From Gammaproteobacteria bacterium (GTDB lineage: Bacteria > Pseudomonadota > Gammaproteobacteria > JAADGQ01), in contig JAKITI010000016.1 of assembly GCA_021648145.1 (NCBI GenBank), forward strand, positions 1-61,386: a stretch of 61,386 nt of DNA, in the 5' to 3' direction. A program made the translations under genes and the position numbers. Numbering within the stretch: the stretch's first letter is position 1; each line of letters begins with the position of its first letter. The notes beneath the pieces are model-generated. The model was not told the origin of the DNA. It worked only from the letters and a program-made list of their open reading frames with translations, and ran no database searches. Positions 743 to 61,386 of this stretch are shown here, in pieces.

Positions 743-785
743 GATTTTACCTTGTCTTGTGAGTTCAATGCGTGTGATGCGATGT

Positions 786-1400
786 TTAGCCTGGCGCAGT
801 GCAACTGCCTAGTGGAGCTGTGTTGCTACCGCTAATCAAACGCGGCCGTCCGGTGGCACTGATGCGGATTTGCCGACCATAATTTACACCTCGGCTATCG
901 CAAATAGCGAAGTTGGCTACAGCACCGGCGTTGTTGCCATCCGCAGAATAAATAAAGGCGTTGAGTGTAGCGCCGGTAAGTATGGTGGTGTCACCGTTCA
1001 CGCTGTTACCGACCTTGATGAGAGTATCGGTGGTGGCGGCAAATTGGGTGGCATCTGTATCACTTATGCCATTCACAAAGATAATCCAACCTGATGTCCA
1101 GGTATTACCACTGCCCGTGCAGATGGGGGTGGTGGCACTGGGGCTGGCGCTAGTACATAGCACTACATTTGTGCCGCGTTTAACCGCTTCGCTGCGGGCA
1201 ATATTGATATCTGTGACCAAGTTATTGGTTTGCGTGGCTAGCCGGTTATTGGCGATGGTGGTCTGAAAGCTGGGTACAGCTACTGTAAGCAAAATAGCGG
1301 CTATAGACAGGGTGATCATCATTTCGATTAAGGTGAAACCGGCTTGTGCACCGGGCGGAAAATGCCCTATGCAAGTATCAGAATGGACTCTGTTTATCAT
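786..1400 (-). CDS. fimT: GspH/FimT family minor pseudopilin, cluster 1
   Basis: A 204-aa protein with a 22-residue leader ending GAQAG before FTLIEMMITLSIAAILLTVAVP, a type III signal. After the helix comes the GspH/FimT signature region (NNLVTDINIARSEAVKRG), a Cys pair and a Gly/Ser-rich beta domain with a C-terminal GRPRL motif. FimT/FimU proteins are tip or core minor pilins and in some species bind DNA during transformation. Here fimT lies between pilY1 and pilE, 18 nt after pilY1. In cluster 2 fimT is first. A FimT-like fragment at 8425-8517 marks the position where a first-gene fimT would be expected. Confidence 0.88.
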   Translation of the reverse strand: MINRVHSDTCIGHFPPGAQAGFTLIEMMITLSIAAILLTVAVPSFQTTIANNRLATQTNNLVTDINIARSEAVKRGTNVVLCTSASPSATTPICTGSGNTWTSGWIIFVNGISDTDATQFAATTDTLIKVGNSVNGDTTILTGATLNAFIYSADGNNAGAVANFAICDSRGVNYGRQIRISATGRPRLISGSNTAPLGSCTAPG

Positions 1401-1418
1401 GACGTGTGTGCTCGTTGG

Positions 1419-6353: not shown

Positions 6354-6934
6354 TGTGAGCCGTAAAAGCGTTCGGCATACATTGTTTCGATGATGGATTG
6401 CGCGGTGTCGGTGCCGCCGATGCCTTGGGCGGTAACGCGGTAAATCACACGCTGGGAGCGTGATTGCCCAGTACCCATCACCAAACTACCCCGGGACGTG
6501 CTATTTTGTTCAACAATAAAACGTGGGCTGGCAGCCAGCCCATTGAGGGTGCTGCTGTAGTTGCGACCGTTAGACTGCCACCAGCTGAGTGACTTGTCTG
6601 TCATGTTGGTTAAGTCTGTCGCATTTAATTTAAAGATGTCACAAGGAGCACTGGCGCAGCTATTTACTGTGCCTGGTGCTTGTATCTGGCTATTTATCCA
6701 GCTCTCCCCTTCACGTACGGCGCTTTCCGCAGCCTGGAAGGCAAGCATTGTGTCACGTGAATTACTGGACATGCGCTCCTGCATTATTGTGGATTGCATG
6801 CCCGACAAACCCAGCAGGGTCAGCACCACCAGCAACATCAAACTGATGATGAGAGAGGCACCGGCTTGTACTTTGGCCAGGGGTGTTTTACCGGCGAAAA
6901 CCGTCAGCGATTTGTTGTCAGTGGTGGGGTGCAT
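6350..6934 (-). CDS. pilX: PilX-like minor pilin, cluster 1
   Basis: A 194-aa protein. The N-terminal half has the PilX pattern: a long leader (~27 aa) ending in QAGASLIISLMLLVVLTLLGLSG, where the usual FTLIE is replaced by ASLIIS as in PilX_N proteins, then MQSTIMQERMSSNSRD and the AFQAAESAVREGE segment. PilX_N proteins sit with PilV and PilW in the minor pilin complex. It lies 6 nt downstream of pilW and overlaps pilY1 by 4 nt. Confidence 0.85.
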   Translation of the reverse strand: MHPTTDNKSLTVFAGKTPLAKVQAGASLIISLMLLVVLTLLGLSGMQSTIMQERMSSNSRDTMLAFQAAESAVREGESWINSQIQAPGTVNSCASAPCDIFKLNATDLTNMTDKSLSWWQSNGRNYSSTLNGLAASPRFIVEQNSTSRGSLVMGTGQSRSQRVIYRVTAQGIGGTDTAQSIIETMYAERFYGSQ

Positions 6935-6940
6935 AATAGC

Positions 6941-7894
6941 TTACGGATTCCTGTTGCGAATACTAATGGTGTTATTGAAGGTACGCCGCAGACGGCCATC
7001 ACCACTGGCACCCTTGGGGGATACATTGCTGGATTCACTGCGTACTATCAGGGTGACGCGCAAGCTGTTGACCTGATCTATTTTTAGACTACCGGTACCA
7101 GGACTCACATAACGCATGGCACCGTTGGTGGCATCAAGTAGCTCACCAAACTGGATTTGCAAATCCTCGATTCCTTCCACCAGCTCCACCGCAGAAGTAC
7201 CGTTTATTGAGCGGAACAGAGCGGGTTCGCCGCTGGCACCCGCCTGGATGGAATATGTCGCTTCGCGTACCTGGTAAACCATGGCACCTCCTTGATATTG
7301 CTGGCTCATACTGGAGGTGTTGTTGCCCGGCGAAGTACCTCCACCGGTATTGTGATTCAGGGTATTTGAGGCAGAGGGGTTATTATTGGATATCTGAAAT
7401 AAGTCGCCAGCCTCGCAGTTGGTCACTAGCATTATGTCTCCCTTTGCCAGCCCCGAAGCATCGGCAACATGGAGGACGGAAGATGCTGTAGGCATGAAGG
7501 GGGCGGTGACTCTCATGCCATCGCTTAGTGCGCCCCGCAGAGTAACGGTGTCGGAGCTGTTGAGGCCAGCATTGTTGGTGCCACCGAGGCCGCCCTGGCC
7601 TAGCAGATTTATATATCCCGTACCTCCGTTGTCGAGATTATCGGTGATAGAAATATCCTGGCTACGGCACCCCCAGTATCCGGCCATGCGCAGGTCATCC
7701 GCCAAAATACGCATAGCGGTACGGCCATTTTCCTGCATCCTTGACAGTGACTCCTGCACCAAGAAACTTTTTTTGTTGGCCAAGAAAATTTGCAACACCC
7801 CAGCCATCAGCACCAAGCTGATGACCATAGCCACCATAATTTCGATGAGGGTCAGTCCGGTCTGATGTCTGGATGTGTTGCGTGTATCTTTCAT
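6941..7894 (-). CDS. pilW: PilW-like minor pilin, cluster 1
   Basis: A 317-aa prepilin. Leader MKDTRNTSRHQTG precedes LTLIEIMVAMVISLVLMAGVLQIFLANK, then LSRMQENGRTAMRILADDLRMAGYWGC, the hallmark of PilW. The large beta-rich domain contains a Cys pair (GC in YWGC and TNCEAG). The C-terminus VEGIEDLQIQFGE...VNSLRVTLIVRS is also typical. It lies 33 nt after pilV. It is needed, with PilV and PilX, to initiate type IV pili. Confidence 0.88.
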   Translation of the reverse strand: MKDTRNTSRHQTGLTLIEIMVAMVISLVLMAGVLQIFLANKKSFLVQESLSRMQENGRTAMRILADDLRMAGYWGCRSQDISITDNLDNGGTGYINLLGQGGLGGTNNAGLNSSDTVTLRGALSDGMRVTAPFMPTASSVLHVADASGLAKGDIMLVTNCEAGDLFQISNNNPSASNTLNHNTGGGTSPGNNTSSMSQQYQGGAMVYQVREATYSIQAGASGEPALFRSINGTSAVELVEGIEDLQIQFGELLDATNGAMRYVSPGTGSLKIDQVNSLRVTLIVRSESSNVSPKGASGDGRLRRTFNNTISIRNRNP

Positions 7895-7927
7895 TTTGTG
7901 TGTATAAACAGTTCTCGGTAATAGGGG

Positions 7928-8428
7928 TTAACGGCTGTAAAGCACTTGCCCTGAGATGCTCAGGCATATCATGTCGTTAGGGTCAGTTGGGTCGCAGCTG
8001 ATACCTGTGGCACCGTTGCGTGCGTCGTCCCACATCACGGTAACGGTATGCGGCAAGCTGGCACTAGTACCAGTGACCGTGCCACGCCCCGAGGGCAATG
8101 TGGCGGCAAGGTTGATGGACCATTCTCCAACATCATTGTCGGCCAGATTGGCCGGGGAGCAGCTGGAGATAATGCAGCCAGGATCGCTGGGCAGGCTACC
8201 TGTATCAATGCTGTTGTAGGCATTGGCATCAATGCCCATGGGGTTGGCACGCATGCGATCCAGCATCTCGTAGGCCAAAAAGGTTGCTTGTGAGCGTTGG
8301 TAGGCGCTGTTGTTGTGCTTTAGGCTGCTGGCTTGCAGACCGGCCAGACCCAGTAGGCCGATAGAGATAACGATCATCGTCACAAGAACTTCGATTAATG
8401 AAAATCCTGAAGAGCGTATCGCCATCAT
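7928..8428 (-). CDS. pilV: PilV-like minor pilin, cluster 1
   Basis: A 166-aa prepilin. Leader MMAIRSSG precedes FSLIEVLVTMIVISIGLLGLAGLQ, then the PilV signature (SAYQRSQATFLAYEMLDRMRANP). The C-terminal domain carries paired Cys residues and ends in the HTVTVMWDD...GQVLYSR beta strand typical of PilV. Its ATG overlaps the stop of the upstream FimT-like fragment (ATGA, 8425-8428), so it may have been coupled to a full fimT in the past. First intact gene of the cluster 1 operon. Confidence 0.88.
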   Translation of the reverse strand: MMAIRSSGFSLIEVLVTMIVISIGLLGLAGLQASSLKHNNSAYQRSQATFLAYEMLDRMRANPMGIDANAYNSIDTGSLPSDPGCIISSCSPANLADNDVGEWSINLAATLPSGRGTVTGTSASLPHTVTVMWDDARNGATGISCDPTDPNDMICLSISGQVLYSR

Positions 8429-8517
8429 TTAAGTGCCATTAACACGCTGTGTGGGTAATTGCTGCTACAGCAAGTGACCATGTTTTCTATCAGTGTGAAC
8501 CCAAGTGTGCTTTTCAT
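8425..8517 (-). pseudogene. N-terminal fragment of a FimT/GspH-type prepilin
   Basis: A 30-codon minus-strand frame starting MKSTLGFTLIENMVT, i.e. a class III prepilin leader with cleavage after Gly and Glu5 preserved, and then unrelated residues (CCSSNYPHSVLMALK). Its stop overlaps the pilV start by 4 nt. It occupies the place fimT has in cluster 2, so it is best read as the stump of an internally deleted fimT. Alternative: a real very short ORF acting as a coupling leader. Confidence 0.55.
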
Positions 8518-8632
8518 AATTCAGCCTAATACACAGATCTATTACTCACTAATAGCGTCAGGAACTTATAAATGTTAAGTGAATAATGGCAGAGAAGGCT
8601 GGGCTGTGTTCGGAGTCACAAATATAGCTGAT

Positions 8633-8674
8633 TATTACGGTAGCATCAGTGAAAAGCAGTTTTGTGCTATGTTC
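8633..8674 (+). pseudogene. 42-nt rpsD (ribosomal protein S4) fragment
   Basis: Fourteen codons translate [14 protein letters not shown], against [14 protein letters not shown] in the intact rpsD at 50419-50460. By my alignment 36 of 42 nt match, including a 21-nt exact run (8642-8662 versus 50428-50448), far beyond chance. Similarity stops abruptly on both sides. It ends 6 nt from the stop of the DUF4143 relic on the other strand. Probably a scrap left by recombination or mobile-element activity. Confidence 0.6.
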
Positions 8675-8680
8675 TCAGAT

Positions 8681-9016
<336 letters not shown>

Positions 9017-9034
9017 TCAATAAAAGCATACATT

Positions 9035-9070
9035 TTTTGAACTGCAGTTCAAAATTTACATGTAAATTTT
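9035..9070. repeat. Two overlapping perfect 20-bp palindromes
   Basis: TTTTGAACTGCAGTTCAAAA (9035-9054) and AAAATTTACATGTAAATTTT (9051-9070) are each perfectly self-complementary and share 4 bp. They lie in a ~230-nt stretch without a gene, just beyond the cut 5' end of the DUF4143 relic and upstream of nothing obvious on either strand. They could be regulator operators, a recombination junction or a transposon-end scar. Confidence 0.55.
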
Positions 9071-9246
9071 GAGTTTTTCATCAATGTACAAGTACTCTGA
9101 TTTCATAAATTATTCGCTACACATGCACATTTAATAAGATAGAAAACTATAATTTAAGTTTGTGGGTATGGGGCACGATAATTAAAAAAACAGGGCCTAT
9201 GCCATACCTGCACCTGCTTTTATTAATACCCTCTCATTCTGTTTTA

Positions 9247-9687
9247 TTACCATATTTTCTCTGCTGAAACGATTATTCCGTTATTATCTTTATCCCAGTT
9301 TCTCTGCCCCGTAGAGAGCAGCTCCAGGTAACCATCACCATCTTGTGACCCACCACTAATCGGTGTTGCACGCAATTTATAAGTCGATGCCGTGACCACT
9401 TGTATTGCTAAGTTATAAGTTTTTTTATTAGAGTGAACGGGAGCCTGCGTTGCAAAAATAGTTGTTTTAGGTGGGCCGGGCACAGTTGTCGCTGCATCGA
9501 CATAAGTGAGATTTTGAGATTGGTAACGCACCATTGATGCTGCAAAATCCATTAATGCCCCTTGAGCATCCGCACGGTGACTTTTTTTAACGCTATCGAC
9601 ATAACTCGGATAAGCAATTCCGGCTAATATGCCAATAATTGCTACAGCGATCATGAGTTCAATCAAACTAAAACCTGTTTTTTTCAT
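9247..9687 (-). CDS. pilE: Type IV pilin-like protein PilE, stand-alone copy divergent from cluster 2
   Basis: A 146-aa prepilin with a very short leader MKKTG before FSLIELMIAVAIIGILAGIAYPSYVDSV, then the PilE motif KKSHRADAQGALMDFAASM. The C-terminus has YKLRATPISGG..DGDGYLEL..GQRNWDKDNNG, closely matching the PilE at 16719-17177. ATG 9687 is chosen because AGGAAG lies 7 nt upstream; an upstream TTG is less likely. It is transcribed away from fimT at 9939 across a 250-nt divergent region. It lacks the paired Cys of the downstream PilE. Confidence 0.87.
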   Translation of the reverse strand: MKKTGFSLIELMIAVAIIGILAGIAYPSYVDSVKKSHRADAQGALMDFAASMVRYQSQNLTYVDAATTVPGPPKTTIFATQAPVHSNKKTYNLAIQVVTASTYKLRATPISGGSQDGDGYLELLSTGQRNWDKDNNGIIVSAEKIW

Positions 9688-9938
9688 TTTCAACTTCCTA
9701 ATTGTCTGTTTTTAGCCGCCACCAAGCATGATGTAAATCATACTATGCACATTTTGTTGAGCTTTCCAGTGCCGTTAATCCAAATAGCGTCAGGGATTTA
9801 GTGAAAAATTCCTGAATAGTGGAGAGTTGTGAATTAAATCACATCCAGTCAATTTTCAAGTTCTGGATAGAACGAACGATACTTAGATACGTACATAGCT
9901 GACAAAAAACCGTCATGCATAGGTGAGGTGAAAATTAT

Positions 9939-10562
9939 ATGCAAAGTAGTACAAGCCAGACAGGGAAGTACTCTACAGGTTTTTCATTGATTGAACTCAT
10001 GGTCACCCTTTCAGTCGCCAGCATTGTGATGATGGTCGCCATTCCAAGCTTTCAAAGCACCGTGAGCGATAATCAAATGGCAACAGCGGTGAATGAGTTC
10101 GTTCGTACATTAAATGCCGCGCGAAGTGAAGCACTTAAACAAAGTATTCGAGTGACGGTATGTAAAAGTAATAACCCAACGGTGGCAGAGCCCGCTTGTA
10201 CAACCTCAGGAGGGTGGGAGCAGGGATGGATCGCTTTTGTTGATAAAGATGCCGATAGTGTGGTGGATTACTCTGCTGATCTGACAGTAGATGAAATGCC
10301 GTTTCAAATTCACGCTCCTTTGGAAGGCTCAAACCGCACTTTGCGTGGTCAGTTTGGTTCAGTCACTGATCGTGTGACTTTTCTGGCTTCAGGTTATGCC
10401 ACTGCAACGAACGGACAACTTATTCTCTGTGATGATCGAATAAAAGTCTTTGCAACAGACAAAGGCAAGGCGCGTGTTGTCATTATCTCTCAAATTGGAC
10501 GCATCAGAACAGTTGAAGGTGATCATGCTGATGTGAATGCTGCGGTGAACTCATGCACTTGA
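9939..10562 (+). CDS. fimT: GspH/FimT family minor pseudopilin, cluster 2
   Basis: A 207-aa protein. Leader MQSSTSQTGKYSTG precedes FSLIELMVTLSVASIVMMVAIPSFQ, then VNEFVRTLNAARSEALKQ, the GspH/FimT signature, and a C-terminal ARVVIISQIGRIRTV strand similar to the GRPRL region. Four Cys residues could form two disulfides. First gene of the seven-gene plus-strand pilin operon; its stop overlaps the pilV start (TGATG). FimT orthologues act in pilus assembly and, in some species, DNA uptake. Confidence 0.87.
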   Translation: MQSSTSQTGKYSTGFSLIELMVTLSVASIVMMVAIPSFQSTVSDNQMATAVNEFVRTLNAARSEALKQSIRVTVCKSNNPTVAEPACTTSGGWEQGWIAFVDKDADSVVDYSADLTVDEMPFQIHAPLEGSNRTLRGQFGSVTDRVTFLASGYATATNGQLILCDDRIKVFATDKGKARVVIISQIGRIRTVEGDHADVNAAVNSCT

Positions 10563-11053
10563 TGAATATAAAAAATAGAGGTTTCACTCTGATCGAAGTA
10601 TTGGTCTCTATGGCCGTTTTAGGCGTGGGTATTCTGGGAGTTGCTGCCTTGCAAATAACAAACGCTCAAAATAACAGCAATGCCTACCTGCGCAGTCAGG
10701 CCGTGTTTTTAGCCTATGATATTGCTGATCGAATGCGTGCTAATCCAGTCGCAGTGGGTAATGGAGCTTATGCAGCAGTGACAGGAAGCGAAGATGATAG
10801 TCCGCTTGGTTTCAATTGCGTTACAACTTTTCCTGCTGGATCAACATGCACAGAAGCAGAGTTTGCTTTAGCTAATATTGCTGCATCTCAGTATGGTTGG
10901 TTATCCGCACTTGCAGAGTATTTACCTGCTGGAACCGGAACCATTGTATGCAGTGATGCCCCATGCACTGAAACTTCACCCCATACCGTGACAATTAGCT
11001 GGAATGATCTTGAAGGATTACCCATGAGCTTTGACTTCAGGTTTACTTTATGA
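10562..11053 (+). CDS. pilV: PilV-like minor pilin, cluster 2
   Basis: Leader MNIKNRG precedes FTLIEVLVSMAVLGVGILGVAALQ, followed by SNAYLRSQAVFLAYDIADRMRANP, the PilV signature also seen in the cluster 1 copy. Four Cys are spaced through the beta domain, and it ends HTVTISWNDLEGLPMSFDFRFTL. ATG 10562 overlaps the fimT stop and gives a normal 7-residue leader; ATG 10553 is possible. The stop overlaps the pilW ATG (ATGA, 11050-11053). Structural partner of PilW and PilX. Confidence 0.87.
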   Translation: MNIKNRGFTLIEVLVSMAVLGVGILGVAALQITNAQNNSNAYLRSQAVFLAYDIADRMRANPVAVGNGAYAAVTGSEDDSPLGFNCVTTFPAGSTCTEAEFALANIAASQYGWLSALAEYLPAGTGTIVCSDAPCTETSPHTVTISWNDLEGLPMSFDFRFTL

Positions 11054-11847
11054 AACCACTCATGAAGCAATATGGCTTTTCTTTAGTCGAAGTGATGGTG
11101 GCTTTGATTGTCGGCATGATTCTTACTGCGGGGCTGATTCAAGCTTTTCAAAGTCACAGGTTGTCCCACCAGGCTAATGAAGGTTTTTCTATACTGCAGG
11201 AAAATTCACGCTTTGCTTTAGATATGGTTGGGCGTTATATGCGTTTGGCGGGGTATCGAGATGCTTCATCCAATTCCATAGAAGATGACTTTTCACTGAT
11301 TATAGGTGGAACTTTGATGGCACCAGCACCCGCAGTTCCCGGAGTATTGGCAGGGCAGGTTATTCAAGGCGTTAATGGTAGCAGCGGCGCTCCTGATTCA
11401 GTAACCTTTCGTTATCTGGGTAGCATTCTCGGTGCATCAGATAATTGCCTTGGCACTGCATTGACTGTCGGAGAGGTGACTAATATAAATTTTTATATTA
11501 GTGGCAGCAACTTGGTCTGCCGGTCTGAAGTGAGAGATGCAGCAACAGGTGCTGAGTTGACCGCTGTGGCCGAGCAGGTATTGGCTGAGGGTGTTGATGA
11601 TATGCAGATTTTGTATGGCCTGGATGATGATGCCAATGGTGCGGCGAATCGTTATGCCAATGCGGCAGCGATTACAGACTGGAGCGAGGTTGTGAGTGTG
11701 CGTCTGGCACTGCTATTTAATACCACGATTGCTGTCGAGAGCAGTGATTTGACACAAAATTATACTCTGTTAGGAACAACAAGTGGCTCCTATACAGACC
11801 GTTTAAGGCGGCGTGTTGTAACAACAACTGTGACGTTAAGAAATTAG
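11050..11847 (+). CDS. pilW: PilW-like minor pilin, cluster 2
   Basis: A 265-aa prepilin. Leader MKPLMKQYG precedes FSLVEVMVALIVGMILTAGLIQAFQSHR, then FSILQENSRFALDMVGRYMRLAGYRD (PilW signature) and a beta domain ending VAEQVLAEGVDDMQILYGLDDD..VVSVRLALLFNT. It is about 50 aa shorter than the cluster 1 PilW. Fully overlapped 5' with pilV, and 5 nt from pilX, so co-translation is likely. Confidence 0.87.
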   Translation: MKPLMKQYGFSLVEVMVALIVGMILTAGLIQAFQSHRLSHQANEGFSILQENSRFALDMVGRYMRLAGYRDASSNSIEDDFSLIIGGTLMAPAPAVPGVLAGQVIQGVNGSSGAPDSVTFRYLGSILGASDNCLGTALTVGEVTNINFYISGSNLVCRSEVRDAATGAELTAVAEQVLAEGVDDMQILYGLDDDANGAANRYANAAAITDWSEVVSVRLALLFNTTIAVESSDLTQNYTLLGTTSGSYTDRLRRRVVTTTVTLRN

Positions 11848-11852
11848 GAGTT

Positions 11853-12446
11853 GTGATGGTTGAAATGAAAAAACAGAGCGGTGCGGTGCTGATGATCAGT
11901 TTGTTGGTGTTATTAGTTATTACATTATTAGGTGTGAGCTCAACACATGGTACGCGAACGCAAGAGCGTATGGCAAAAAACTCTCAAGATAGGCAGATAG
12001 CATTTCAAACAGCAGAAACAACAGCTTCCTGGACAGAGCAAAAAGTATTCGATGACATTGGTGGGGATATTTTTAATATAGACCTTACGGAGTGGTGTGA
12101 CCTGTTTGTCGAGGATTTAAGCACCCTGTCTACTGATTGTAAAGATAGTGGTGGTAATGCCAAGCCTTGGGATAGCTCATATAAGGTCTGGGAAAGTGGT
12201 GTTGTAAAAAATCAGGCATTAACTTCCGCTCAGAAAACATCTCTTTTTGGTACGAACAGTGCGATAGCAAAAGACCCGCGCCAACAAGTTGTACTGCTTA
12301 ATCTTGAGAAACGTAAAGGCTTTGAAAGCAGCAGTGCGCCAGGTGGATTAGTGGCGACATTTGTAGTGACCAGCCTGGGCTATGGTGAGGAAGAAAACAC
12401 CACTGTGAAAATCCAGACTTTATTTAATGTTGATGTAGGGCTTTAA
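11853..12446 (+). CDS. pilX: PilX-like minor pilin, cluster 2
   Basis: A 197-aa PilX_N-type protein. A short N-terminus MVEMKKQSG precedes AVLMISLLVLLVITLLGVSS, then GTRTQERMAKNSQDRQIAFQTAETTASW, matching the ...MQERMSSNSRD...AFQAAES pattern of the cluster 1 PilX. A TAGGAG Shine-Dalgarno precedes the ATG. The C-terminal domain has two Cys around a DLFVEDLSTLSTD loop and a final GYGEEENTTVKIQTLF strand. Confidence 0.84.
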   Translation: MMVEMKKQSGAVLMISLLVLLVITLLGVSSTHGTRTQERMAKNSQDRQIAFQTAETTASWTEQKVFDDIGGDIFNIDLTEWCDLFVEDLSTLSTDCKDSGGNAKPWDSSYKVWESGVVKNQALTSAQKTSLFGTNSAIAKDPRQQVVLLNLEKRKGFESSSAPGGLVATFVVTSLGYGEEENTTVKIQTLFNVDVGL

Positions 12447-12479
12447 GGCTCTGTTTAATACGATAAGAGGATCGAAATT

Positions 12480-15400
12480 ATGCGTTTTTATCGAAAAATA
12501 TGTAGTGTCACCATAATACTGAGTTTGTTGATAACGCCCAATGTCAATGCGACGACTAATACAACCACGGTCGCCCCTAATTTGATGATTATTTTCAGCA
12601 CTGCATTTTCGATGCATCGTGAAATGGATGACTCAACTTACCCACGTATAGATACTGATAACGATGGAGTAACACGTGATGATTATTATCGCTTTGATGA
12701 TGGTGGCTTCGATCAATGGAATCTTGGTAATGCTTCGCCAGCGCCCGCACCGTGGAATAGCAGTGGGACTTTCCTGAGAACTGGGCTACATGGTAACCAG
12801 CCTGATTCAAAGCTTTATCAGAGTAAGAAGGCCTTTCTGGAGATTTTAAATAATGATAGCCTTACGGGTGATATCAATATTGGATTTTCTACATTCAGGC
12901 AAATGTTTGGCTTGTCAATGGCCACTATGGAACGTATGAGCACTGCAACTTATCCTGAAGTTCTTCCACCTGGAGGTAACCCTTTTGCGAATCTGACTAA
13001 CAGAGGTAACCCTGCAGACCCTGCCTCACTGCACCCAACACACCCAGCCGGAAATGATATTTTTAAAGCTTCAACGCCTGACAAAAATGTGTTTGCAAGT
13101 GATATGACTAATTTTTCTTCAATGAAATGGTGGCGGCAATGGTTTGATTGGAAGGCTCCTGAAAGCGTAACAGGGAATGACTATAGTAACTCTGGTTTAG
13201 TGACCCCTTGTGCTTATCCTGTTTCAGGAAGCCCAATGTATGGAAATCCTGCTTTGGGAGGAGCTAGTGGTAAATATTATGAGACAGGCCGAGGTTTTTT
13301 AGACGATAGTTTTACAACGTTTCTTGACAATAACGGTGGTGATGGTGGATTGCCGCTTCGGTTAAAATACCGGAGTGGAGCAAAAGATCAGTCATATAGT
13401 CGTACAGAGTGTAGTATTGATGGAGATCGTTGGCCTTGGGGGGTGCGTAATGTTACGGGGGCACGCAGTCAGGCTGAAGTTGATGTCAATCTCCCTGTGA
13501 TTGAACATTACCTGTGCAGAGTATCGTATAACTCACAGATGAATAGGTTTGTAGCATTTTATAATGCCAATCGACCTTATCGTCACGCATACCCAGGGGT
13601 TAGTTCAGGCTACGGTCTACGTTACTCTACACCAGACGGCTATTTGTTTGACGCAAACGGCTTGTTGGTTGACAGAGCAGGCGATGATAGGTCAATTTCT
13701 GATTATGTTACTAATTGTGCGTCACCTCTTTCAGCTCAAAATATTATTACTCAAACTGCACGAGTTAGTGATCAGCTTAGAGCGTGGGGGCCTCTTTCAG
13801 GAAACCCTAGTTTGACACCAGCCTATTTTTCACAAATACCATACTACTGGATGGGCGTTAGCGCTAATACGACGGATGCTGAAATTGGAGCAATGACTGG
13901 ATGGTCTGGTAAAACGATCTATAAAAGGGATTGTGATGGAGCAGGAGTCGGTACAGATGAGTGCATGACAGCCTCTTATCCTTCAGGTGTAACGGACCCT
14001 TGTGATGACAGCCGTAATTTATGCCCTAATACAACTGATGTTAACGATCCTGACAAGTTGTATCGATATGTTAAAACCATGGGGGAAGATTTGCCCTCAA
14101 ATTCACGCCACATGGGCATATTCCTGGATCTTCCTGATCCGGCATTGGGATACGCTGATAACAGGGCAAAAATAAAGGGGTTTATGGGTTATCAACAGAT
14201 GGGGCTTGATGGTAATGATTACAATCCTGCAACTCAGACTATAGCTGGAAGTAAAGGTATTGCTGCCAGCTCACACCCATGGCAGGCGAATCAATCACCG
14301 ATTTATCAATCACTCATGAGTGCTTATGCCTATTTCAGTGCTTATAAAGAGGCTGATACTCTATATGATAGTTGTCGAAGCAATAATATCTTGCTGTTTT
14401 ATGATGGAAAGGAAGATGCTCGCTGGGAAACTGTTGACGGCAATAGAGTTTATGCTAAACCAGAAGAGATAGCAGCCAAATTATATGATGATCTGGGTGT
14501 TCGGGTTCATGTAGTCATCATGTCAAATAACATTGGTGATATTGACCAGGCAAACCTGATTGCAGCTAATGGAAACCCTGCTGTTAATGGCTCTCCTGCT
14601 GAAGCGTATGTTGCGGGTACACCGCAAGAGCTTAAAAATGCTCTGTCCAGTACATTAAGCACTATTGGTCTGAGCGGTGAAGTGAGTGAAGTGGCTCCGG
14701 CTATCCCCACTGTTACCAAAGCGGGTAGCAAGGTTTTTCTGGCAGGGAGTGAGCAATCGCCAAGTGCGGGGCATCTCAGAGCCTATGAAGTTGATAATAA
14801 TGATGCTTTAACTTTAAGTTGGGATGCAGCAGATCAAATGACAGTCGCTGAGCGTAAAAGCAGGCTATGGTCAACAAAGTCTGATGGTGATCTTAAAAAG
14901 TTTAAATCCCTAGATGATGCTGCTTTTGTAGCCAGTGGTACGCCAACAGTAGCGACGATCAAGAAGTATACGCTTGATCCATCCTATGATAACGAAGCGT
15001 ACCTCCTGAATCGAAAATATAGCAGTTTGTTAGGCACTATTGGGGAAAATAACTACACCATGGCTTTGGGTTCACCGAGTGATCCTGCTTTGTGGCGTGA
15101 TTCAGATTATCGTACTTATGTTAAGGCCAGAAAACTTGATCGTATTCCCCTCGTATTAACCAGTTCGGACGATGGTTTTTTGTATGCCTTTAAGCAGTCC
15201 GATGGTGACTTGCTCTGGGGCTGGACTCCACGAAGTATAGTCAAGCATATGCAAACCTATAGCACTTTTCAGTTTGGTAACTATATGGATGGCCGCTTTT
15301 ATGCAGTGGATGCCAGAAAAAAAAGTGGTGATGATTATAAAACATATATTGTGGGAGCAGCCAGGTCAGGTGCAATGTATTACTCATTAAGGCTGAAAGA

Positions 15401-16436
15401 TAATGGAAAATTGAAAAAGATGGCTTGGAGTGAAGAATATACAGGCCATACCTCTCCAGGAGATGGTGAGCCCCAGTTGTGGCGTCATGACAGTAAGGTT
15501 TATGCAATTTATGTCGTGAACAATGGTGCTGGTGCATCAACATTAGTCATACGCAATGTTGCCAAAAAAAGTGACGAAGTGGTTGTGACAGGTTTTTCTT
15601 TCAAAATAACCGCTGTACCACTGATTTCAGGAGATGATGAAATTTACCTTGGCGATGAAAATGGCAATGTTTATCGTACGGAGTTGTTGGATGGAAGTGG
15701 AGTATTGAAAGCGGATAGTGTTTTACTTGCTGATTTAAACTTGACAACGGCTAAATTAGGAAATTTTGTTCCAGCAACTTTTCCATCATCTGAATTGACA
15801 TACCTAGGTATCACAACAAGCAGTGATGAAAAACGTTATTTACGAACTCAGTCAACATCACGTCTGACCATTTTTAGAGAAGACTATGTTGATCATGATA
15901 GCAATTCTGCAACAGCTGATGTGCCCGTATGGCGCAGAGCATGGACCAGCAGTTCTGATGCAACGAATAATGCAGGGTCATGGGATGCTGATGGAGATTA
16001 TACAGCCGACTCAACGGGTTCACTCGGGACTGATACTGATGGGTATTTCACACTTAAAACCACAGGAATTCCTTCATTGCCTCCAGGCGCAGTGATCACT
16101 GATGCTGCTGCTCTTGCTGGTGATGCAGTCGTTCTGCCTGTGGCTTTGGCACTTACTACAGGTGCCTGTAGTTCCCTGGATGTGGCTTATTACTATTTAT
16201 ATGATTTAGCAACAGGTCAATTTCCGGATGGGAAATTTGGAAGTCGTGATCGTCATATACACGCTGGGTTTGGGGAGCCTAATAGGGTATCTCTGACCAC
16301 TACGGGTCCGAATAAAATCGACCTTATACCTAATGCACCTCAAAAAACGGATAACACAACGGGTGTTATGGATGGAATTGAGGTCACAGGTGGTCAGCGC
16401 TCAGGTCGTAATTCCTGGCGCGAATTGATTCAATAA
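12480..16436 (+). CDS. pilY1: PilY1-like pilus tip protein, cluster 2
   Basis: A 1318-aa protein. A Sec signal (VTIILSLLITPNVNA) is followed by PNLMIIFSTAFSMHREMD, which sits where other PilY1 proteins carry a von Willebrand A-like start, but the DxSxS metal site is not conserved. The C-terminal PilY1 propeller is recognisable (PLVLTSSDDGFLYAFKQ, ISGDDEIYLGDENGNVY) and the protein ends GGQRSGRNSWRELIQ, parallel to the QAWRQIK end of the cluster 1 protein. It lacks the PA14 insertion. It is 33 nt after pilX and 20 nt before a small secreted-protein gene. Expected role: calcium-dependent control of pilus extension and surface contact. Confidence 0.88.
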   Translation: MRFYRKICSVTIILSLLITPNVNATTNTTTVAPNLMIIFSTAFSMHREMDDSTYPRIDTDNDGVTRDDYYRFDDGGFDQWNLGNASPAPAPWNSSGTFLRTGLHGNQPDSKLYQSKKAFLEILNNDSLTGDINIGFSTFRQMFGLSMATMERMSTATYPEVLPPGGNPFANLTNRGNPADPASLHPTHPAGNDIFKASTPDKNVFASDMTNFSSMKWWRQWFDWKAPESVTGNDYSNSGLVTPCAYPVSGSPMYGNPALGGASGKYYETGRGFLDDSFTTFLDNNGGDGGLPLRLKYRSGAKDQSYSRTECSIDGDRWPWGVRNVTGARSQAEVDVNLPVIEHYLCRVSYNSQMNRFVAFYNANRPYRHAYPGVSSGYGLRYSTPDGYLFDANGLLVDRAGDDRSISDYVTNCASPLSAQNIITQTARVSDQLRAWGPLSGNPSLTPAYFSQIPYYWMGVSANTTDAEIGAMTGWSGKTIYKRDCDGAGVGTDECMTASYPSGVTDPCDDSRNLCPNTTDVNDPDKLYRYVKTMGEDLPSNSRHMGIFLDLPDPALGYADNRAKIKGFMGYQQMGLDGNDYNPATQTIAGSKGIAASSHPWQANQSPIYQSLMSAYAYFSAYKEADTLYDSCRSNNILLFYDGKEDARWETVDGNRVYAKPEEIAAKLYDDLGVRVHVVIMSNNIGDIDQANLIAANGNPAVNGSPAEAYVAGTPQELKNALSSTLSTIGLSGEVSEVAPAIPTVTKAGSKVFLAGSEQSPSAGHLRAYEVDNNDALTLSWDAADQMTVAERKSRLWSTKSDGDLKKFKSLDDAAFVASGTPTVATIKKYTLDPSYDNEAYLLNRKYSSLLGTIGENNYTMALGSPSDPALWRDSDYRTYVKARKLDRIPLVLTSSDDGFLYAFKQSDGDLLWGWTPRSIVKHMQTYSTFQFGNYMDGRFYAVDARKKSGDDYKTYIVGAARSGAMYYSLRLKDNGKLKKMAWSEEYTGHTSPGDGEPQLWRHDSKVYAIYVVNNGAGASTLVIRNVAKKSDEVVVTGFSFKITAVPLISGDDEIYLGDENGNVYRTELLDGSGVLKADSVLLADLNLTTAKLGNFVPATFPSSELTYLGITTSSDEKRYLRTQSTSRLTIFREDYVDHDSNSATADVPVWRRAWTSSSDATNNAGSWDADGDYTADSTGSLGTDTDGYFTLKTTGIPSLPPGAVITDAAALAGDAVVLPVALALTTGACSSLDVAYYYLYDLATGQFPDGKFGSRDRHIHAGFGEPNRVSLTTTGPNKIDLIPNAPQKTDNTTGVMDGIEVTGGQRSGRNSWRELIQ

Positions 16437-16456
16437 CAAGTTTTTGGAGATTTTCA

Positions 16457-16726
16457 ATGAAAAAAATTCTTGTGATAAGTGCTTTGCTTTTAAGCAGTAC
16501 ATCGCTCATGGCTGCCGAAGAAACAGATAGCAAAGAGCATAAAGTGACAGTAACGGCCACGTTTAATTTTAAAGCAGGTGACGTGTTGAGCAAAGAAGAG
16601 ATTTCAGAGCGCTTAAGGATAGAAGAACTGCGTAATCAACAGATATGGAACTCTTTCGAAAAGCGTGATATGCAAACAAGTAAATATTTTGATGAGGCTA
16701 AAAAGGCAGAGAGAGAGAGTGATTAA
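16457..16726 (+). CDS. Small exported protein between pilY1 and pilE
   Basis: An 89-aa protein with a clear signal peptide (MKKILVISALLLSSTSLMAA, cleavage after AMAA-like LMAA). The mature ~69 residues are polar, helical and charged (SKEEISERLRIEELRNQQ), with no Cys. A GGAG-type RBS precedes the ATG. It lies in the pilin operon: 20 nt after pilY1, and it overlaps the downstream pilE start by 8 nt. Cluster 1 has no counterpart. Function unknown; the position suggests a periplasmic helper or accessory subunit of the PilY1/PilE tip complex. Confidence 0.75.
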   Translation: MKKILVISALLLSSTSLMAAEETDSKEHKVTVTATFNFKAGDVLSKEEISERLRIEELRNQQIWNSFEKRDMQTSKYFDEAKKAERESD

Positions 16727-17177
16727 TCATCAAAAAGGGTTCACGCTTATTGAGCTGATGATCGCCTTGGTTGTATTGGCGATACTGGCCAGTATTGCCT
16801 ACCCATCTTATGTGGAGCAGGTTAAAAAGTCACGAAAAGGTGATGCACAGGCGGCACTTTTGGAGTTAAGTCAATTTATGGAAAAGTTTTATACTGATAA
16901 TAGCTGTTATCAGTATAAGGGGGTAGATGGGCTTTGTTCGACTACAGGTGACAATACAGACCCTGTGTTACCTTTCACCCAAAGCCCAAAACAAGGCTCA
17001 ACAAAATATTATGATTTAACAATTCAGTCTTCAACTAACGCAACACGTTACACTTTACGGGCAACACCTATCGCTGGTGGTGCTCAAGCGGGTTATGGCT
17101 GGCTGGAAATAACCAACACGGGTCTGATGCATTGGGATAAAGATAACGATGGTTCTAGCGGAGAGAGTCGTTGGTAA
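16719..17177 (+). CDS. pilE: Type IV pilin-like protein PilE, last gene of cluster 2
   Basis: The start is taken as GTG 16719 (overlapping the preceding stop, purine-rich RBS), giving leader VINHQKG before FTLIELMIALVVLAILASIAYPSYVEQV. An ATG at 16665 would give an implausible Arg/Lys-rich 25-aa leader. PilE features: KKSRKGDAQAALLELSQFMEKFY, a Cys pair (NSCYQYKGVDGLC) and YTLRATPIAGG..GYGWLEI..GLMHWDKDND. The 3' end overlaps convergent prmC by 23 nt. Role as a minor or major-like pilin subunit. Confidence 0.88.
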   Translation: MINHQKGFTLIELMIALVVLAILASIAYPSYVEQVKKSRKGDAQAALLELSQFMEKFYTDNSCYQYKGVDGLCSTTGDNTDPVLPFTQSPKQGSTKYYDLTIQSSTNATRYTLRATPIAGGAQAGYGWLEITNTGLMHWDKDNDGSSGESRW

Positions 17178-57399: not shown

Positions 57400-57546
57400 T
57401 TATAGAGTGATCATTGATAATAGTGAGTCAGTTTCTACTCTGTCCAAGGGTTCATCAGCGATTTCTTCCACAACCCTTCGTACATTTGTGTTGCAGTTGT
57501 CCTTGCGTAATTCAGACAGAACACAAGTATCCAGTAACACCCTCAC
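57400..57546 (-). pseudogene. Truncated VapC-type PIN toxin
   Basis: GTG 57546 overlaps the antitoxin stop and starts VRVLLDTCVLSELRK, the classical VapC N-terminus with the first catalytic Asp (LLDTC) and Glu (SELRK). After ~35 residues it departs and stops at 48 aa, whereas PIN toxins are ~130-140 aa and need two to three more acidic residues. The toxin is therefore most likely dead, cut by a deletion next to pstS. Confidence 0.72.
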
Positions 57547-57785
57547 AGGTCAACCTCTCGCATTCCTGATTTATCACGGTTCAGAGCAAGGTCATCCAGA
57601 TTCGGGGTTTGCTTGAGCAGGAACTCTTTAAAACCAGGTCGCACTCCTGTCAGTCGATCATACTCTTGCTGTGCGAGTAGAATAACAGTGTCATCACGGC
57701 GTGAAATACGTTGTGGCCCTTCAATCAAGGCTCTATTAACGACCTCACTAAAAAGATTTTTTGCTTCTGCCAAACGCCAGTCCAT
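57543..57785 (-). CDS. Phd/YefM-family antitoxin
   Basis: An 80-aa protein starting MDWRLAEAKNLFSEVVNRALIEGPQRISRRDDTVILLAQQEYDRL, the Phd/YefM DNA-binding fold (LAEAKNxFSEVV..A...GPQ.ITRR...V.V.S..EY..L), then a toxin-neutralising tail. It overlaps the vapC relic by 4 nt. Intact antitoxin with broken toxin; may persist as an autoregulator or as an anti-toxin against other PIN toxins. Confidence 0.88.
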   Translation of the reverse strand: MDWRLAEAKNLFSEVVNRALIEGPQRISRRDDTVILLAQQEYDRLTGVRPGFKEFLLKQTPNLDDLALNRDKSGMREVDL

Positions 57786-58053: not shown

Positions 58054-58170
58054 AAAACAGATTGTTATTTTTTGTCGTGGAATAACATATTGTAACCCAT
58101 GTTTTTTTGTGATTTACTAAATGTGTAAAAAATATTGACACGATTTTTAATAATAAAAACAATGAGATTG

Positions 58171-58198
58171 TGATCTGTGATCTGTGATCTGTGATCTG
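58171..58198. repeat. Four tandem copies of a 7-bp unit (TGATCTG)
   Basis: TGATCTG is repeated four times without a mismatch, and the partial GTGAC continues. It lies 170 nt upstream of the LuxR gene, within its leader/promoter. Repeats of this type can change copy number by slippage and alter spacing of regulatory elements. Confidence 0.8.
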
Positions 58199-58368: not shown

Positions 58369-59196
58369 ATGTATTGCAACTGTTTAAGTGAATCTTGCAA
58401 GCTTGAAGTTTTTTCAATTATTGAGTCATGTCTCAATTTTCATTCAAACGATGAGTTTGAAAGCATATTAAAAAGAACACGGGAGCTGATGGGTTATGAG
58501 ATGATGGCATGTGGTATAGGGATTCGAGACGGTCGTTCGATGAAAGCTGTCACAAGTCTGAACAAAGGGTTTCCTGAAAAATTTATTTCAATGATTGTTG
58601 GCTCATCGGGTCAAGTCATATCTCCACTGTTTTGTCATTGGTTTGAAAGCCAATCACCACAGGTATTGGATGTTCATAAAGAATCTTGCCAGAGTTCTTC
58701 TGACGATATCGCTTTTTACCAGAGGTTTTCAATTAATAATGTCATGTCTCATGGCGTACTGGATTGTGGTCAGGGTTATGCATCGTATTTTGGTTTTGCC
58801 AATATAGTGGGTGGCATTGAAGAGCGTCATGTTGACCTGATGAAGATTCTAGTCCCTCATTTACATGCTGTATATACAAAAACAGCAGCTGTAAAAAAGG
58901 CTTTATCACCTATATTTCCAGTGGTTTCAACACTCCAGAGCGGTGACCTTTCAGATCAATATCTGGTTGCTCAAGCGGAGGTATCCCACAATAAAAAAAT
59001 ACTTTCAGCGCGTGAAACTGAAGTATTGAGATGGGTGTATTTAGGAAAAACTAACTGGGAAGTCGCGCAAGTGTTAAGTATTAGTGAGCAAACCGTGAAA
59101 AACCATGTTAAAAAAATCACTAAAAAGCTTGACGTAAATAATCGACAGCATGCTACTGCCAAGGCACTTCAAATGAAAATCATAGTAATCCAGTAA
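58369..59196 (+). CDS. LuxR-family transcriptional regulator (EpsA-like)
   Basis: A 275-aa protein. The N-terminal ~190 aa is a GAF/autoinducer-domain-like sensor (ELMGYEMMACGIGIRDG, FSINNVMSHGVLD, ASYFGFANIVGGIEERHVDLMKILVPHLHAVY) reminiscent of the EpsA-type regulators near exopolysaccharide genes. The C-terminal LuxR HTH at ~210-270 is complete: LSARETEVLRWVYLGKTNWEVAQVLSISEQTVKNHVKKITKKLDV. No phospho-receiver domain and no obvious luxI nearby. It is followed by a terminator and then four small genes in the same direction, which it may control. Confidence 0.85.
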   Translation: MYCNCLSESCKLEVFSIIESCLNFHSNDEFESILKRTRELMGYEMMACGIGIRDGRSMKAVTSLNKGFPEKFISMIVGSSGQVISPLFCHWFESQSPQVLDVHKESCQSSSDDIAFYQRFSINNVMSHGVLDCGQGYASYFGFANIVGGIEERHVDLMKILVPHLHAVYTKTAAVKKALSPIFPVVSTLQSGDLSDQYLVAQAEVSHNKKILSARETEVLRWVYLGKTNWEVAQVLSISEQTVKNHVKKITKKLDVNNRQHATAKALQMKIIVIQ

Positions 59197-59300: not shown

Positions 59301-59735
59301 GTGAATAAAAAATTAATAGCGGCTGTATCAATGTGTGCCTCAGTTTACTCTGGCACTTTGCTTGCCAATAGTGATGAAATCTCTTCACAACTGGAGAGTG
59401 TTCTCAAGTCACAGAATGTGGCCATGTCAAAAGATTCAGAATCCATTGAAGGTGTGATGAAGAGTATGCACTCTGAATCTCCTGCTTCTATGCATGTCAA
59501 GGTTGCAATGGAACAAATGTTTCCTGTTTATGATATGAATGTCTCCCTGCAAGAGTTCAGCTTTGTTGGTGTGAGTGGTGATTATGCTATTGCACGGGTC
59601 AAAGAAAAAATTGAAAAAATCAGTGGGCCAGCATCATTTAAGAGTCAAGTGAACGAAAAAATACATATATTCAAACAAGAACAAAGTCAATGGAAACTCT
59701 GGCAGGCTATAGCCTTGGATGTGGAGTATCTGTAA
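59301..59735 (+). CDS. Exported NTF2-like small protein, copy 1
   Basis: A 144-aa protein from GTG 59301 (TGGAG RBS). Signal peptide MNKKLIAAVSMCASVYSGTLLA, then a helical segment (SSQLESVLKSQ..AMSKDSESIEGVMKSMH) and a beta sheet (EFSFVGVSGDYAIARVKEKIEKISG, KIHIFKQEQSQWKLWQ) that together read as a SnoaL/NTF2-like cone. About 64% identical (my count, 92/144) to the next gene, with identical length. No catalytic residues are evident. Function unknown; it lies between a LuxR regulator and a double-glycine peptide gene. Confidence 0.78.
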   Translation: MNKKLIAAVSMCASVYSGTLLANSDEISSQLESVLKSQNVAMSKDSESIEGVMKSMHSESPASMHVKVAMEQMFPVYDMNVSLQEFSFVGVSGDYAIARVKEKIEKISGPASFKSQVNEKIHIFKQEQSQWKLWQAIALDVEYL

Positions 59736-59791: not shown

Positions 59792-60226
59792 ATGAATAAA
59801 AAATTAACAACAGTTATATCTCTTTGTGCTTCGGTCTATTCCGGCACCCTACTTGCAAACAATGGTGCTGTGTCATCGCAGCTGGAAAATGTGATGAAAA
59901 CACAAGCCGCAGCTATGTCAAAAGATTCAGAGTCCATTGAAGATGTGATGAAGGTTATGCACCCTGAATCTCCAATTTATATGCATGAGAAGACAAAATT
60001 AGAGAGATTGTTTCCAGCGTCTGATGCCAATATTTCATTGATCAAGTTTAATTTTGTCGGCATTAGTGGTGATTATGCTGTTGCGCGGGTAAAGAGCAAA
60101 GTGGAAAAAATCAGTGGCATTGCATCAATAAAAGACCATGTATATGAAGGGATATACGTATTCAAGCAAGATCGGAGCCAATGGAAAATCTGGAAATCAG
60201 TTTTATTGGATAAAGAGTATCTGTGA
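59792..60226 (+). CDS. Exported NTF2-like small protein, copy 2
   Basis: A 144-aa tandem paralogue of copy 1, starting at ATG with GAGGTG about 10 nt upstream. Conserved blocks: ASVYSGTLLAN, AMSKDSESIE, FVGxSGDYAxARVK, EKISG and SQWKxW. The divergent parts are the helix after ESP and the strand-3/4 loop. Same orientation, with a 56-nt gap. Duplicated secreted proteins of this type may bind a peptide or small ligand, but nothing specific can be claimed. Confidence 0.78.
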   Translation: MNKKLTTVISLCASVYSGTLLANNGAVSSQLENVMKTQAAAMSKDSESIEDVMKVMHPESPIYMHEKTKLERLFPASDANISLIKFNFVGISGDYAVARVKSKVEKISGIASIKDHVYEGIYVFKQDRSQWKIWKSVLLDKEYL

Positions 60227-60271
60227 TATTTTTGAATTCTCTTTTGATTGATAAAGGAAGAGAGTTAGGAG

Positions 60272-60303
60272 TTTCCGGTGGTGGCTGCAACCACCACCGG
60301 AAA
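60272..60303 (+). promoter_or_regulatory. 13-bp perfect hairpin upstream of the double-glycine peptide gene
   Basis: TTTCCGGTGGTGG (60272-60284), loop CTGCAA, CCACCACCGGAAA (60291-60303). GC-rich within an AT-rich region, no T tract, 75 nt before the peptide ATG. Could be an attenuator, a processing site separating the paralogue and peptide transcripts, or a binding site. Confidence 0.7.
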
Positions 60304-60307
60304 AGTC

Positions 60308-60329
60308 GCTTCTAACTGTTGTTAGAGGC
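60308..60329 (+). terminator. Second hairpin directly after the first
   Basis: GCTTCTAAC, loop TGTT, GTTAGAGGC (9 bp, one G-U) followed by ATTTTG. Looks like a weak intrinsic terminator; with the 13-bp stem 4 nt before it, it forms a tandem stem-loop leader. Confidence 0.5.
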
Positions 60330-60341
60330 ATTTTGAAACGA

Positions 60342-60357
60342 AGCGTAATTATACGCT
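60342..60357. promoter_or_regulatory. Inverted repeat AGCGTA-ATTA-TACGCT just before the peptide gene
   Basis: 6-bp perfect arms around ATTA, ending 20 nt before the ATG and 6 nt before the GAGGT RBS. Could be an operator, including for the LuxR-type regulator, although it does not match the classical 20-bp lux box. Confidence 0.4.
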
Positions 60358-60377
60358 AATTAATGAGGTAACTCAAA

Positions 60378-60650
60378 ATGAGAGAATTAAATTTTAGTGA
60401 AGTTGAGCAGGTTTCTGGTGGTCTTGATTGGCTCAGTAAATTTATTTTCGGGGCTGCTACAGGGCTAAGCCCAATAGCTTTGCTCACTCAATCTGATGAT
60501 GTTGGTCTAGGAAGTGATATTGTTTCGCCTCAGCCTTGGCCTCAGGATCCGTATGATTTCGGTATTGGTGATTATGGCACACCGTATAACCCCCCAAACT
60601 ATGGTTATACCCCTCCGTCGAATGAAGGCTATGGCCCCCCCGGATGGTAG
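60378..60650 (+). CDS. Double-glycine-leader secreted peptide precursor (bacteriocin-like)
   Basis: A 90-aa precursor. Leader MRELNFSEVEQVSGG is a textbook GG leader (hydrophobic L/V positions, Glu, Ser-Gly-Gly) recognised by C39-peptidase ABC exporters, with cleavage after Gly15. The mature ~75-aa product starts LDWLSKFIFGAATGLSPIALL, an amphipathic/hydrophobic segment, then turns into a Pro/Tyr/Gly/Asp-rich tail (PWPQDPYDFGIGDYGTPYNP ... GYGPPGW). No Cys, so not a disulfide- or lanthionine-type peptide. GAGGT RBS. No exporter gene in the window. It may be a class II-type bacteriocin, a signal peptide or a small adhesin; bacteriocin-like is the best guess. Confidence 0.82.
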   Translation: MRELNFSEVEQVSGGLDWLSKFIFGAATGLSPIALLTQSDDVGLGSDIVSPQPWPQDPYDFGIGDYGTPYNPPNYGYTPPSNEGYGPPGW

Positions 60651-60694
60651 TAAATAGCTTCGATTCGTGATCTAAATAAAAGATGATGAAGATA

Positions 60695-60729
60695 TCCCCT
60701 CCTTTTTGTTGAAAGGGAGGGGGTTAGTT
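60695..60729 (+). terminator. Terminator after the GG-leader peptide gene
   Basis: TCCCCTCCTTT and AAAGGGAGGGG pair with one bulge (loop TTGTTG), followed by TTAGTTTT. Stable G/C stem; the short gap to the next gene contains its own RBS. Confidence 0.65.
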
Positions 60730-60808: not shown

Positions 60809-61120
60809 ATGTATGCCTATACTTTACTCGTTAGTTTAACAAAAAATAAGTTTTCTTTAAAAAAAATATATCTTATTGGTTTGCCAGCTGAATTAGGTGG
60901 TGTGTTTATTGGTTTGATTTTATCAACTTATCATTGGTTACTTTTTTTCGTTGCAGTAGCTGCTGCTGTGTTGTTTTATTACTGCACCTTCAAATATCTG
61001 TATAAATTGGAAATGTATAAGAAAGGTTGTATTGAAAAGTCGTTTTACTACCAAATTATATTGGCTCAAATTATATTTATATTGTGTGTTCTTTTGTTCA
61101 TGCAATGGATTTTATGGTGA
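60809..61120 (+). CDS. Small three-helix membrane protein, candidate immunity protein, 3' end abuts IS1
   Basis: A 103-aa protein. Hydrophobic segments at ~21-40, 42-62 and 80-102 (e.g. LLFFVAVAAAVLFYYC, YYQIILAQIIFILCVLLFMQ), with Lys/Tyr-rich loops between them. The upstream sequence ATTAATGAGGTG resembles that of the GG peptide gene (ATTAATGAGGTAA). Its last two codons and stop (TGG TGA) coincide with the IS1-like left end GGTGATG at 61116, so the original protein was probably longer or ended differently. The position directly after a GG-leader precursor suggests an immunity or accessory role; no family recognised. Confidence 0.62.
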   Translation: MYAYTLLVSLTKNKFSLKKIYLIGLPAELGGVFIGLILSTYHWLLFFVAVAAAVLFYYCTFKYLYKLEMYKKGCIEKSFYYQIILAQIIFILCVLLFMQWILW

Positions 61121-61386
61121 TGGCTTAAAGCTGTAATTATTTGATATAATAGCATTTATGAAATGTTATTAAGAAGTTAAATGCCCGAAGTGTAGTGGCA
61201 ACCAAATAATGAAATCAGGGCTTAGCAACAAAGGAGTTTAGCGTTATTGTTGCAAAAATCCCGAATGTAAAATGAACACTTTTATGCTGAGTTATCGAAA
61301 TAAAGCTTATGAAGCTGGGGTTAAAAAACAAATTGTGGATATGGCAATCAATGGAAGTGGCATACGTGATACTGCTCGAGTACTTG
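61116..61386 (+). mobile_element. Left part of an IS1-family element (runs out of the window)
   Basis: GGTGATGGC at 61116-61124 matches the IS1 terminal repeat start GGTGATG, with a promoter-like TATAAT 21 nt later (61145-61150), then an InsA-like coding frame. Only ~270 nt are visible; the right end, insB and any target duplication lie outside. The inner frame is broken, so this copy cannot supply InsA. Confidence 0.72.
61173..61386 (+). pseudogene. insA: IS1 InsA-like zinc-finger/HTH protein, nonsense mutated
   Basis: The frame KCPKCSGNQIMKSGLSNKGV, stop, RYCCKNPECKMNTFML and then QIVDMAINGSGIRDTARVL aligns with InsA (CPxC zinc knuckle, QIVDMAFNGAGVRDTARAL). TAG at 61239-61241 falls where InsA has Gln (G-R-Q-R-Y), a likely CAG to TAG change. 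No ATG/GTG/TTG lies in frame between the TAA at 61170-61172 and the first Cys. A degraded 5' part of the transposase regulator; the C-terminus is outside the window. Confidence 0.78.

Follow-up and report, generated by a model that had tools for sequence, protein, structure and literature searches.

A putative class II microcin-type peptide with an exchangeable core in a LuxR/C39-exporter locus of a gammaproteobacterium

Fifteen microcins are confirmed, all of them from Enterobacteriaceae (PMC10233263), and the verified class II microcins (n = 10) come mostly from E. coli (PMC9746304). Their leader is defined as an N-terminal stretch of 15–18 amino acids ending in GG or GA (PMC10233263). The genetic criteria for the class comprise this leader, a PCAT with its triad, an MFP, TolC and an adjacent small membrane protein (PMC9746304, PMC10233263). 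Chimeras of MccV and MccH47 assigned uptake to the C-terminus and activity to the N-terminal part (PMC10233263). In the Mcc1229 cluster, the DUF4440 protein MctD gives immunity together with MctE (PMC8853679). The locus described here lies on a stretch of 61,386 nucleotides, the window, that makes up contig C16 in full; the gammaproteobacterial genome comprises 2.66 Mb in 31 contigs. As far as the evidence goes, the locus is microcin-like by anatomy. We consider it likely that its peptide is a class II microcin-type effector with an exchangeable core, embedded in a LuxR/C39-exporter locus.

The open reading frame at 60378–60650 (+) starts with ATG, is preceded by a Shine-Dalgarno-like GAGGT (60365–60369, +) and encodes a precursor of 90 amino acids, composed of the leader MRELNFSEVEQVSGG and the mature part LDWLSKFIFGAATGLSPIALLTQSDDVGLGSDIVSPQPWPQDPYDFGIGDYGTPYNPPNYGYTPPSNEGYGPPGW. 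Translation, a leader-pattern scan and the relatives identified the double-glycine leader (60378–60422, +), which at 15 residues agrees with the class II microcin definition. The mature peptide has 75 residues (60423–60650 including the stop codon, +), arranged as an amphipathic head (residues 16–50) and a Pro/Tyr/Gly tail (residues 51–90, from approximately 60528). It contains 12 Pro, 11 Gly, 6 Tyr and no Cys at a predicted charge of −7; the 40 residues of the tail account for 11 Pro, 7 Gly and 6 Tyr. The peptide is acidic with a hydrophilic tail, unlike many pore-forming bacteriocins, and its Pro/Tyr/Gly-rich C-terminus, SNEGYGPPGW, differs from the Gly/Ser-rich C-terminus of siderophore (class IIb) microcins. 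The AlphaFold model was weak (pLDDT 53.5), with a helix at residues 15–28 and an unstructured tail. A degenerate DNA pattern of the leader matched once in the own genome and not at all in two relatives, the reversed control matched nowhere. Codon choice followed that of the long genes in the window, with a synonymous score of 0.042, where randomly drawn synonymous codons gave −0.088 ± 0.046 (z 2.8), and similar values for neighbouring genes. A chance ORF is ruled out by the single match of the leader pattern, the codon score and the mostly synonymous changes in a paralogous tail described below; the ORF is a genuine double-glycine precursor gene. Direct searches with the peptide against genome contigs, viral contigs, plasmids and phages returned no convincing homologue, and there was no match in Pfam, NCBIfam, PHROGs or the PDB. 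A phage origin was rejected, the peptide and the companion protein of the locus being free of phage matches and of phage family membership.

Upstream of the peptide lies a gene for a LuxR-type regulator of 275 amino acids (58369–59196, +) with an autoinducer-binding domain (Pfam Autoind_bind, 1.5e-6) and a GerE HTH (6.5e-20). Four tandem copies of TGTGATC (58169–58196), about 170 bases upstream of this gene, could be a regulator site. Elsewhere in the window, an antitoxin-like ORF (80 aa) is followed by a 48-aa ORF resembling the start of a PIN-domain toxin (57400–57785), possibly a decayed toxin-antitoxin pair, and two adjoining minor type IV pilin gene sets occupy 260–17177 in opposite orientations, each with a PilY1-like protein (1644 and 1318 aa). 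Between regulator and peptide gene are two copies of the companion gene. Copy 1 (59301–59735, +) encodes a protein of 144 amino acids, putatively DUF4440/SnoaL-like, with a predicted signal peptide; copy 2 (59792–60226, +), also of 144 amino acids, was recognized by its 64 % identity to copy 1 and by homologues in relatives. The family assignment is weak, with DUF4440 in four of six members and SnoaL_3 in three (best about 7e-4) and no match for the window copies, and the AlphaFold model of the companion is poor (pLDDT 37.5). Few genomes carry this family, 2 of 63 in the relatives' order, and a query of plasmids and viral contigs found none. Behind the peptide gene, a consensus scan detected a terminator-like hairpin of 14 pairs (60694–60724, +), alone no evidence of function. 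The gene directly downstream codes for a membrane protein of 103 amino acids (60809–61120, +), for which hydropathy predicts three membrane segments. By position and type it is the likely candidate for the immunity protein of the producer.

Contig C16 breaks off 736 bases 3' of the peptide gene in a degenerate IS1-like InsA fragment (61184–61386, +) that reaches the contig end, a truncation of the locus that the preliminary description had no means of recognizing. Contig C12 (L005) opens with the very 31 nt on which the window closes. When the genome was searched with the window end, the intact 31-nt overlap turned up at these two ends and nowhere else; further copies of the element either resemble it by 66–67 % or end before it. 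The InsA-like frame, degenerate and with an internal stop, runs on across the join, and just behind the remnant C12 carries a truncated second peptide, of which the C-terminal tail LSQNGYTPPGNEGYGSGR and its stop codon remain (C12, 115–173). The genome contains the tail pattern GYTPPxNEGYG at two sites only, one in the window and one on C12. The paralogous tail keeps 10 of the 11 residues of this pattern and four of its five changed codons are synonymous, which suggests past selection on its protein sequence. From these three agreeing signs, overlap, InsA frame and paralogous tail, we infer that C16 and C12 adjoin and form one locus, the gene content of which is also seen in relatives. C12 continues with genes for a 166-aa membrane protein (412–912), HlyD (917–2161), a C39 ABC exporter (PCAT) of 709 amino acids (2161–4290) and TolC (4290–5600). 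Homology between the 166-aa protein and the 103-aa protein of the window was considered and dismissed, the pair giving a marginal local match only. The exporter has a strong Peptidase_C39 match (2.2e-34), its Cys28, His101 and Asp117 occupy the positions of the CvaB Cys-His-Asp triad, and the HlyD-family adaptor and TolC adjoin it. Because C12 continues in this way, the peptide gene can be placed in a full class II microcin-type export locus, the adjacency of exporter and peptide being taken from the 31-nt overlap. The sister species has kept the exporter, while no peptide or LuxR was found there, possibly owing to a gap in its assembly. The degenerate InsA with its internal stop and the truncated second peptide, situated between the two halves of the locus, might indicate a locus in decay, in which the second peptide fell to the insertion element and the surviving gene no longer has a function. 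However, the frames of LuxR, both companions, the peptide, the 103-aa protein, HlyD, PCAT and TolC are intact and the codon score of the peptide resembles that of its neighbours; decay is thus a very improbable explanation.

The gap between companion copy 2 and the peptide gene (60227–60377, +) was recognized as a structured untranslated RNA by folding and covariation. Helices were located at approximately 60235–60266, 60272–60303, 60308–60329, 60342–60357 and 60364–60375 (+), the last a small hairpin that wraps the Shine-Dalgarno sequence. Compared to shuffled sequence, folding of the 150–170 nt gap gave z values of −6.8 for the window and −6.35 for the related locus L056, where the equivalent lies at 5814–5965; further equivalents occupy the companion-peptide gaps of L080. 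In six sequences from three genomes, of which four are near-identical and with the third helix of L056 misaligned, 92.3 % of the cells paired in the consensus structure derived from this same alignment, versus 40–47 % with the partners slid. Eight pairs showed two-sided changes, and the covariation score surpassed all 500 shuffles and all slid controls. The main hairpins also fold independently in each of the three genomes, with different bases. These comparisons characterize the untranslated region as a conserved multi-hairpin RNA. The hairpins are present in a single copy in the genome, which dismisses a dispersed repeat, and no Rfam family matched them, which dismisses a known RNA family.

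Relatives of the locus were reached only with the HlyD of the exporter as bait. The MAG contig JALUUH010000149.1 (L056), with an HlyD of 82 % identity, carries in one piece LuxR on the opposite strand, the 3' part of the companion gene, the hairpins and a GG peptide, then small membrane proteins, two of which are homologous to the 103-aa protein (one, at 56 % identity, adjoins the peptide locus), and finally HlyD, PCAT and TolC. Its peptide consists of the leader MRELTFSELGHVSGG and the mature part NDYSMEWVTVGGLIGTRLGGAYGGIMGA, an ordinary Gly-rich core. HlyD, PCAT, TolC and LuxR were found in a Thiomicrorhabdus MAG (L057), PCAT, TolC, LuxR and the companion in another one (L089). The PCATs of the related loci have 84–85 % identity to that of the window genome, the LuxR homologues of L056, L057 and L089 have 46–50 %. 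A protein of approximately 250 amino acids without a Pfam match above the cut-off is linked to the exporter genes at L057:7182–7937, L059:2981–3721 and L056:12704–13483, the L056 copy sharing 31–35 % identity with the Thiomicrorhabdus copies; neither the window nor the initial 20 kb of C12 yielded one. Less closely related HlyD proteins from other members of the class also have GG peptides as neighbours, but the cores of these are unrelated.

A query of the relatives' genomes with the window peptide scored five times in the Thiomicrorhabdus MAG, at E values between 2e-6 and 0.1, and inspection of the contig added a sixth peptide. On contig C70 (L080), cassettes follow one another, composed of companion (146 aa), GG peptide and one or more small membrane proteins; the companion homologue precedes the GG peptide here as in L056. 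Cassettes with unrelated cores cover L080:1–10600 and L081:7785–8051, one companion being frame-broken and another shortened. Among four cassettes, pairwise DNA identity was 86–98 % in the companion, 91–96 % in the untranslated region and 96–97 % in the leader, versus 14–44 % in the mature part, and the DNA downstream of the mature part differed as well. Thus identity ends at the Gly-Gly codons. An alignment of homologues, proposed in the preliminary description to see which part is conserved, found 10 of 15 leader positions invariant in eight peptides from three genomes (M1 R2 E3 L4 F6 E8 V12 S13 G14 G15). The refuting condition named there, an unconserved leader, thus did not arise. The GG leader had been read correctly, as the conserved part in the relatives and with the protease-exporter required for its processing encoded in the same locus. 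The eight mature parts range from 28 to 75 amino acids and from −7 to +3 in charge. One of them ends in NPYGW, and the core at L080 5468 has a head, LDW...GAA.G, in common with the window peptide. All are free of Cys, a property first taken as unusual that turned out to be the rule. The supposed contrast to typical class II microcins is weaker than claimed, the mature part being hypervariable across the family, lack of Cys being normal in it and some relatives having ordinary Gly/Ala-rich cores. The class IIb bacteriocin model TIGR03949 matched weakly in four of eight relatives (best E 0.0082), and did not match the window peptide up to E 1. These data describe the mature part as the interchangeable core of a rare modular cassette, in which companion, RNA and leader stay constant.

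The low-complexity composition of the Pro/Tyr/Gly tail, known from binding or assembly proteins, would also suit an extracellular structural or adhesive component on the cell surface or in the biofilm matrix. The tail recurs in the truncated C12 paralogue, and the L081 core has a Pro-rich tail ending in GDGYSPHW. However, most relatives lack the tail behind the same leader and companion, the cores differ wholly, which is incompatible with a shared structural role, and a membrane protein stands beside each peptide; a structural component is hence very improbable. As the tail is missing in most relatives, the shared docking or assembly tag suggested earlier finds no support either, and by comparison of the cores the tail appears as part of the variable region, not as a family hallmark. 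A role as binding segment is plausible, because the C-terminus of MccV sets uptake.

Returning to the microcin-type effector, the small secreted peptide is probably antibacterial. The LuxR-type regulator would control the locus and the C39 domain of the exporter, some 2.5–3 kb downstream across the contig break, would cut the leader after Gly15, releasing a 75-aa mature peptide that may exit via HlyD and TolC, the machinery for which is present. The 103-aa three-segment membrane protein would protect the producer. By analogy to MccV, the target membrane may be the site of action of the amphipathic head, and a receptor on the target surface the binding partner of the Pro/Tyr/Gly tail, so that the variable core, tail included, would set the target. 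The secreted companion could serve all cores alike as an accessory, perhaps as a guard or chaperone in the periplasm; given its constancy next to changing cores, such a general role is more likely than specific immunity. The multi-hairpin RNA probably sets peptide expression, translation or transcript stability. The effectors would diversify by cassette duplication and core exchange, with the mature region as the exchangeable module. Points against this reading are the acidity of the window peptide and its hydrophilic tail, its lack of a family match and the sister species, in which neither peptide nor LuxR was found. Alternatively, the variable peptides could be secreted signals or self-recognition tags sensed by kin, with the small membrane proteins as receptors or regulators. 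A LuxR with an autoinducer-type domain occurs in every related locus whose sequence covers that part, passages in PMC7018657 and PMC10986499 describe the export of signalling peptides by PCATs too, and hypervariability fits kin recognition as well. However, neither a sensor kinase nor a peptide receptor is encoded in the locus, several of the cores resemble bacteriocins and are rich in Gly and Ala, and the presence of several different peptides in one genome, each beside a membrane protein, fits toxin-immunity pairs better. We therefore regard signalling as unlikely.

More surprising than the tail is the constant upstream block carrying unrelated effector cores. The secreted DUF4440-like companion, the multi-hairpin RNA and the GG leader may form the constant 5' block of an undescribed diversification platform, in which unrelated cores, along with their membrane partners, are exchanged at the Gly-Gly codons and which needs companion and RNA for every core; we put this forward tentatively, as a possibility with slightly less than even chances. 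The locus would carry the microcin kind into Gammaproteobacteria that appear to be autotrophic sulfur oxidisers. It provides a set of naturally occurring, unrelated cores that share a single leader, exporter and companion, by which it becomes testable which part of the core sets the target and whether the constant companion and RNA are required. Companion, RNA structure and leader are search handles for cores too variable for searches with their own sequence. A search of a paper library for the combination of companion, RNA structure and cassette array found no description, in itself weak evidence of novelty; these three features set the locus apart from the systems in the cited papers.

With class II microcins such as MccV (colicin V, CvaA-CvaB-TolC), the locus shares the 15-aa GG leader, the C39 exporter with its triad, the HlyD-type adaptor, TolC, the small membrane protein adjoining the peptide gene and the Gram-negative host. 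It differs in a host outside the Enterobacterales, a LuxR-type regulator, the constant secreted companion and multi-hairpin RNA before each peptide, the cassette arrays with unrelated cores and the Pro/Tyr/Gly tail of the window core. As in the Mcc1229 cluster, a protein putatively of the DUF4440 family stands beside the microcin-like gene, a likeness to MctD by description only; unlike MctD, the 144-aa companion has a weak DUF4440 membership, carries a predicted secretion signal and does not vary with the cores. The Lactobin A/cerein 7B family (TIGR03949) resembles the system in its GG leader and Gly-rich cores, as reflected in the weak matches of half of the relatives, whereas the window peptide stands outside the model. 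In streptococcal blp-type regions, a single PCAT serves several leader-sharing peptides, which are accompanied by small membrane proteins for immunity; these regions are Gram-positive, are regulated by a two-component pheromone system and are not known to have a secreted companion of this kind. Leader-sharing peptides, small membrane proteins and a single PCAT recur in the present system, in contrast combined with a LuxR-type regulator, a Gram-negative host and a constant secreted companion.
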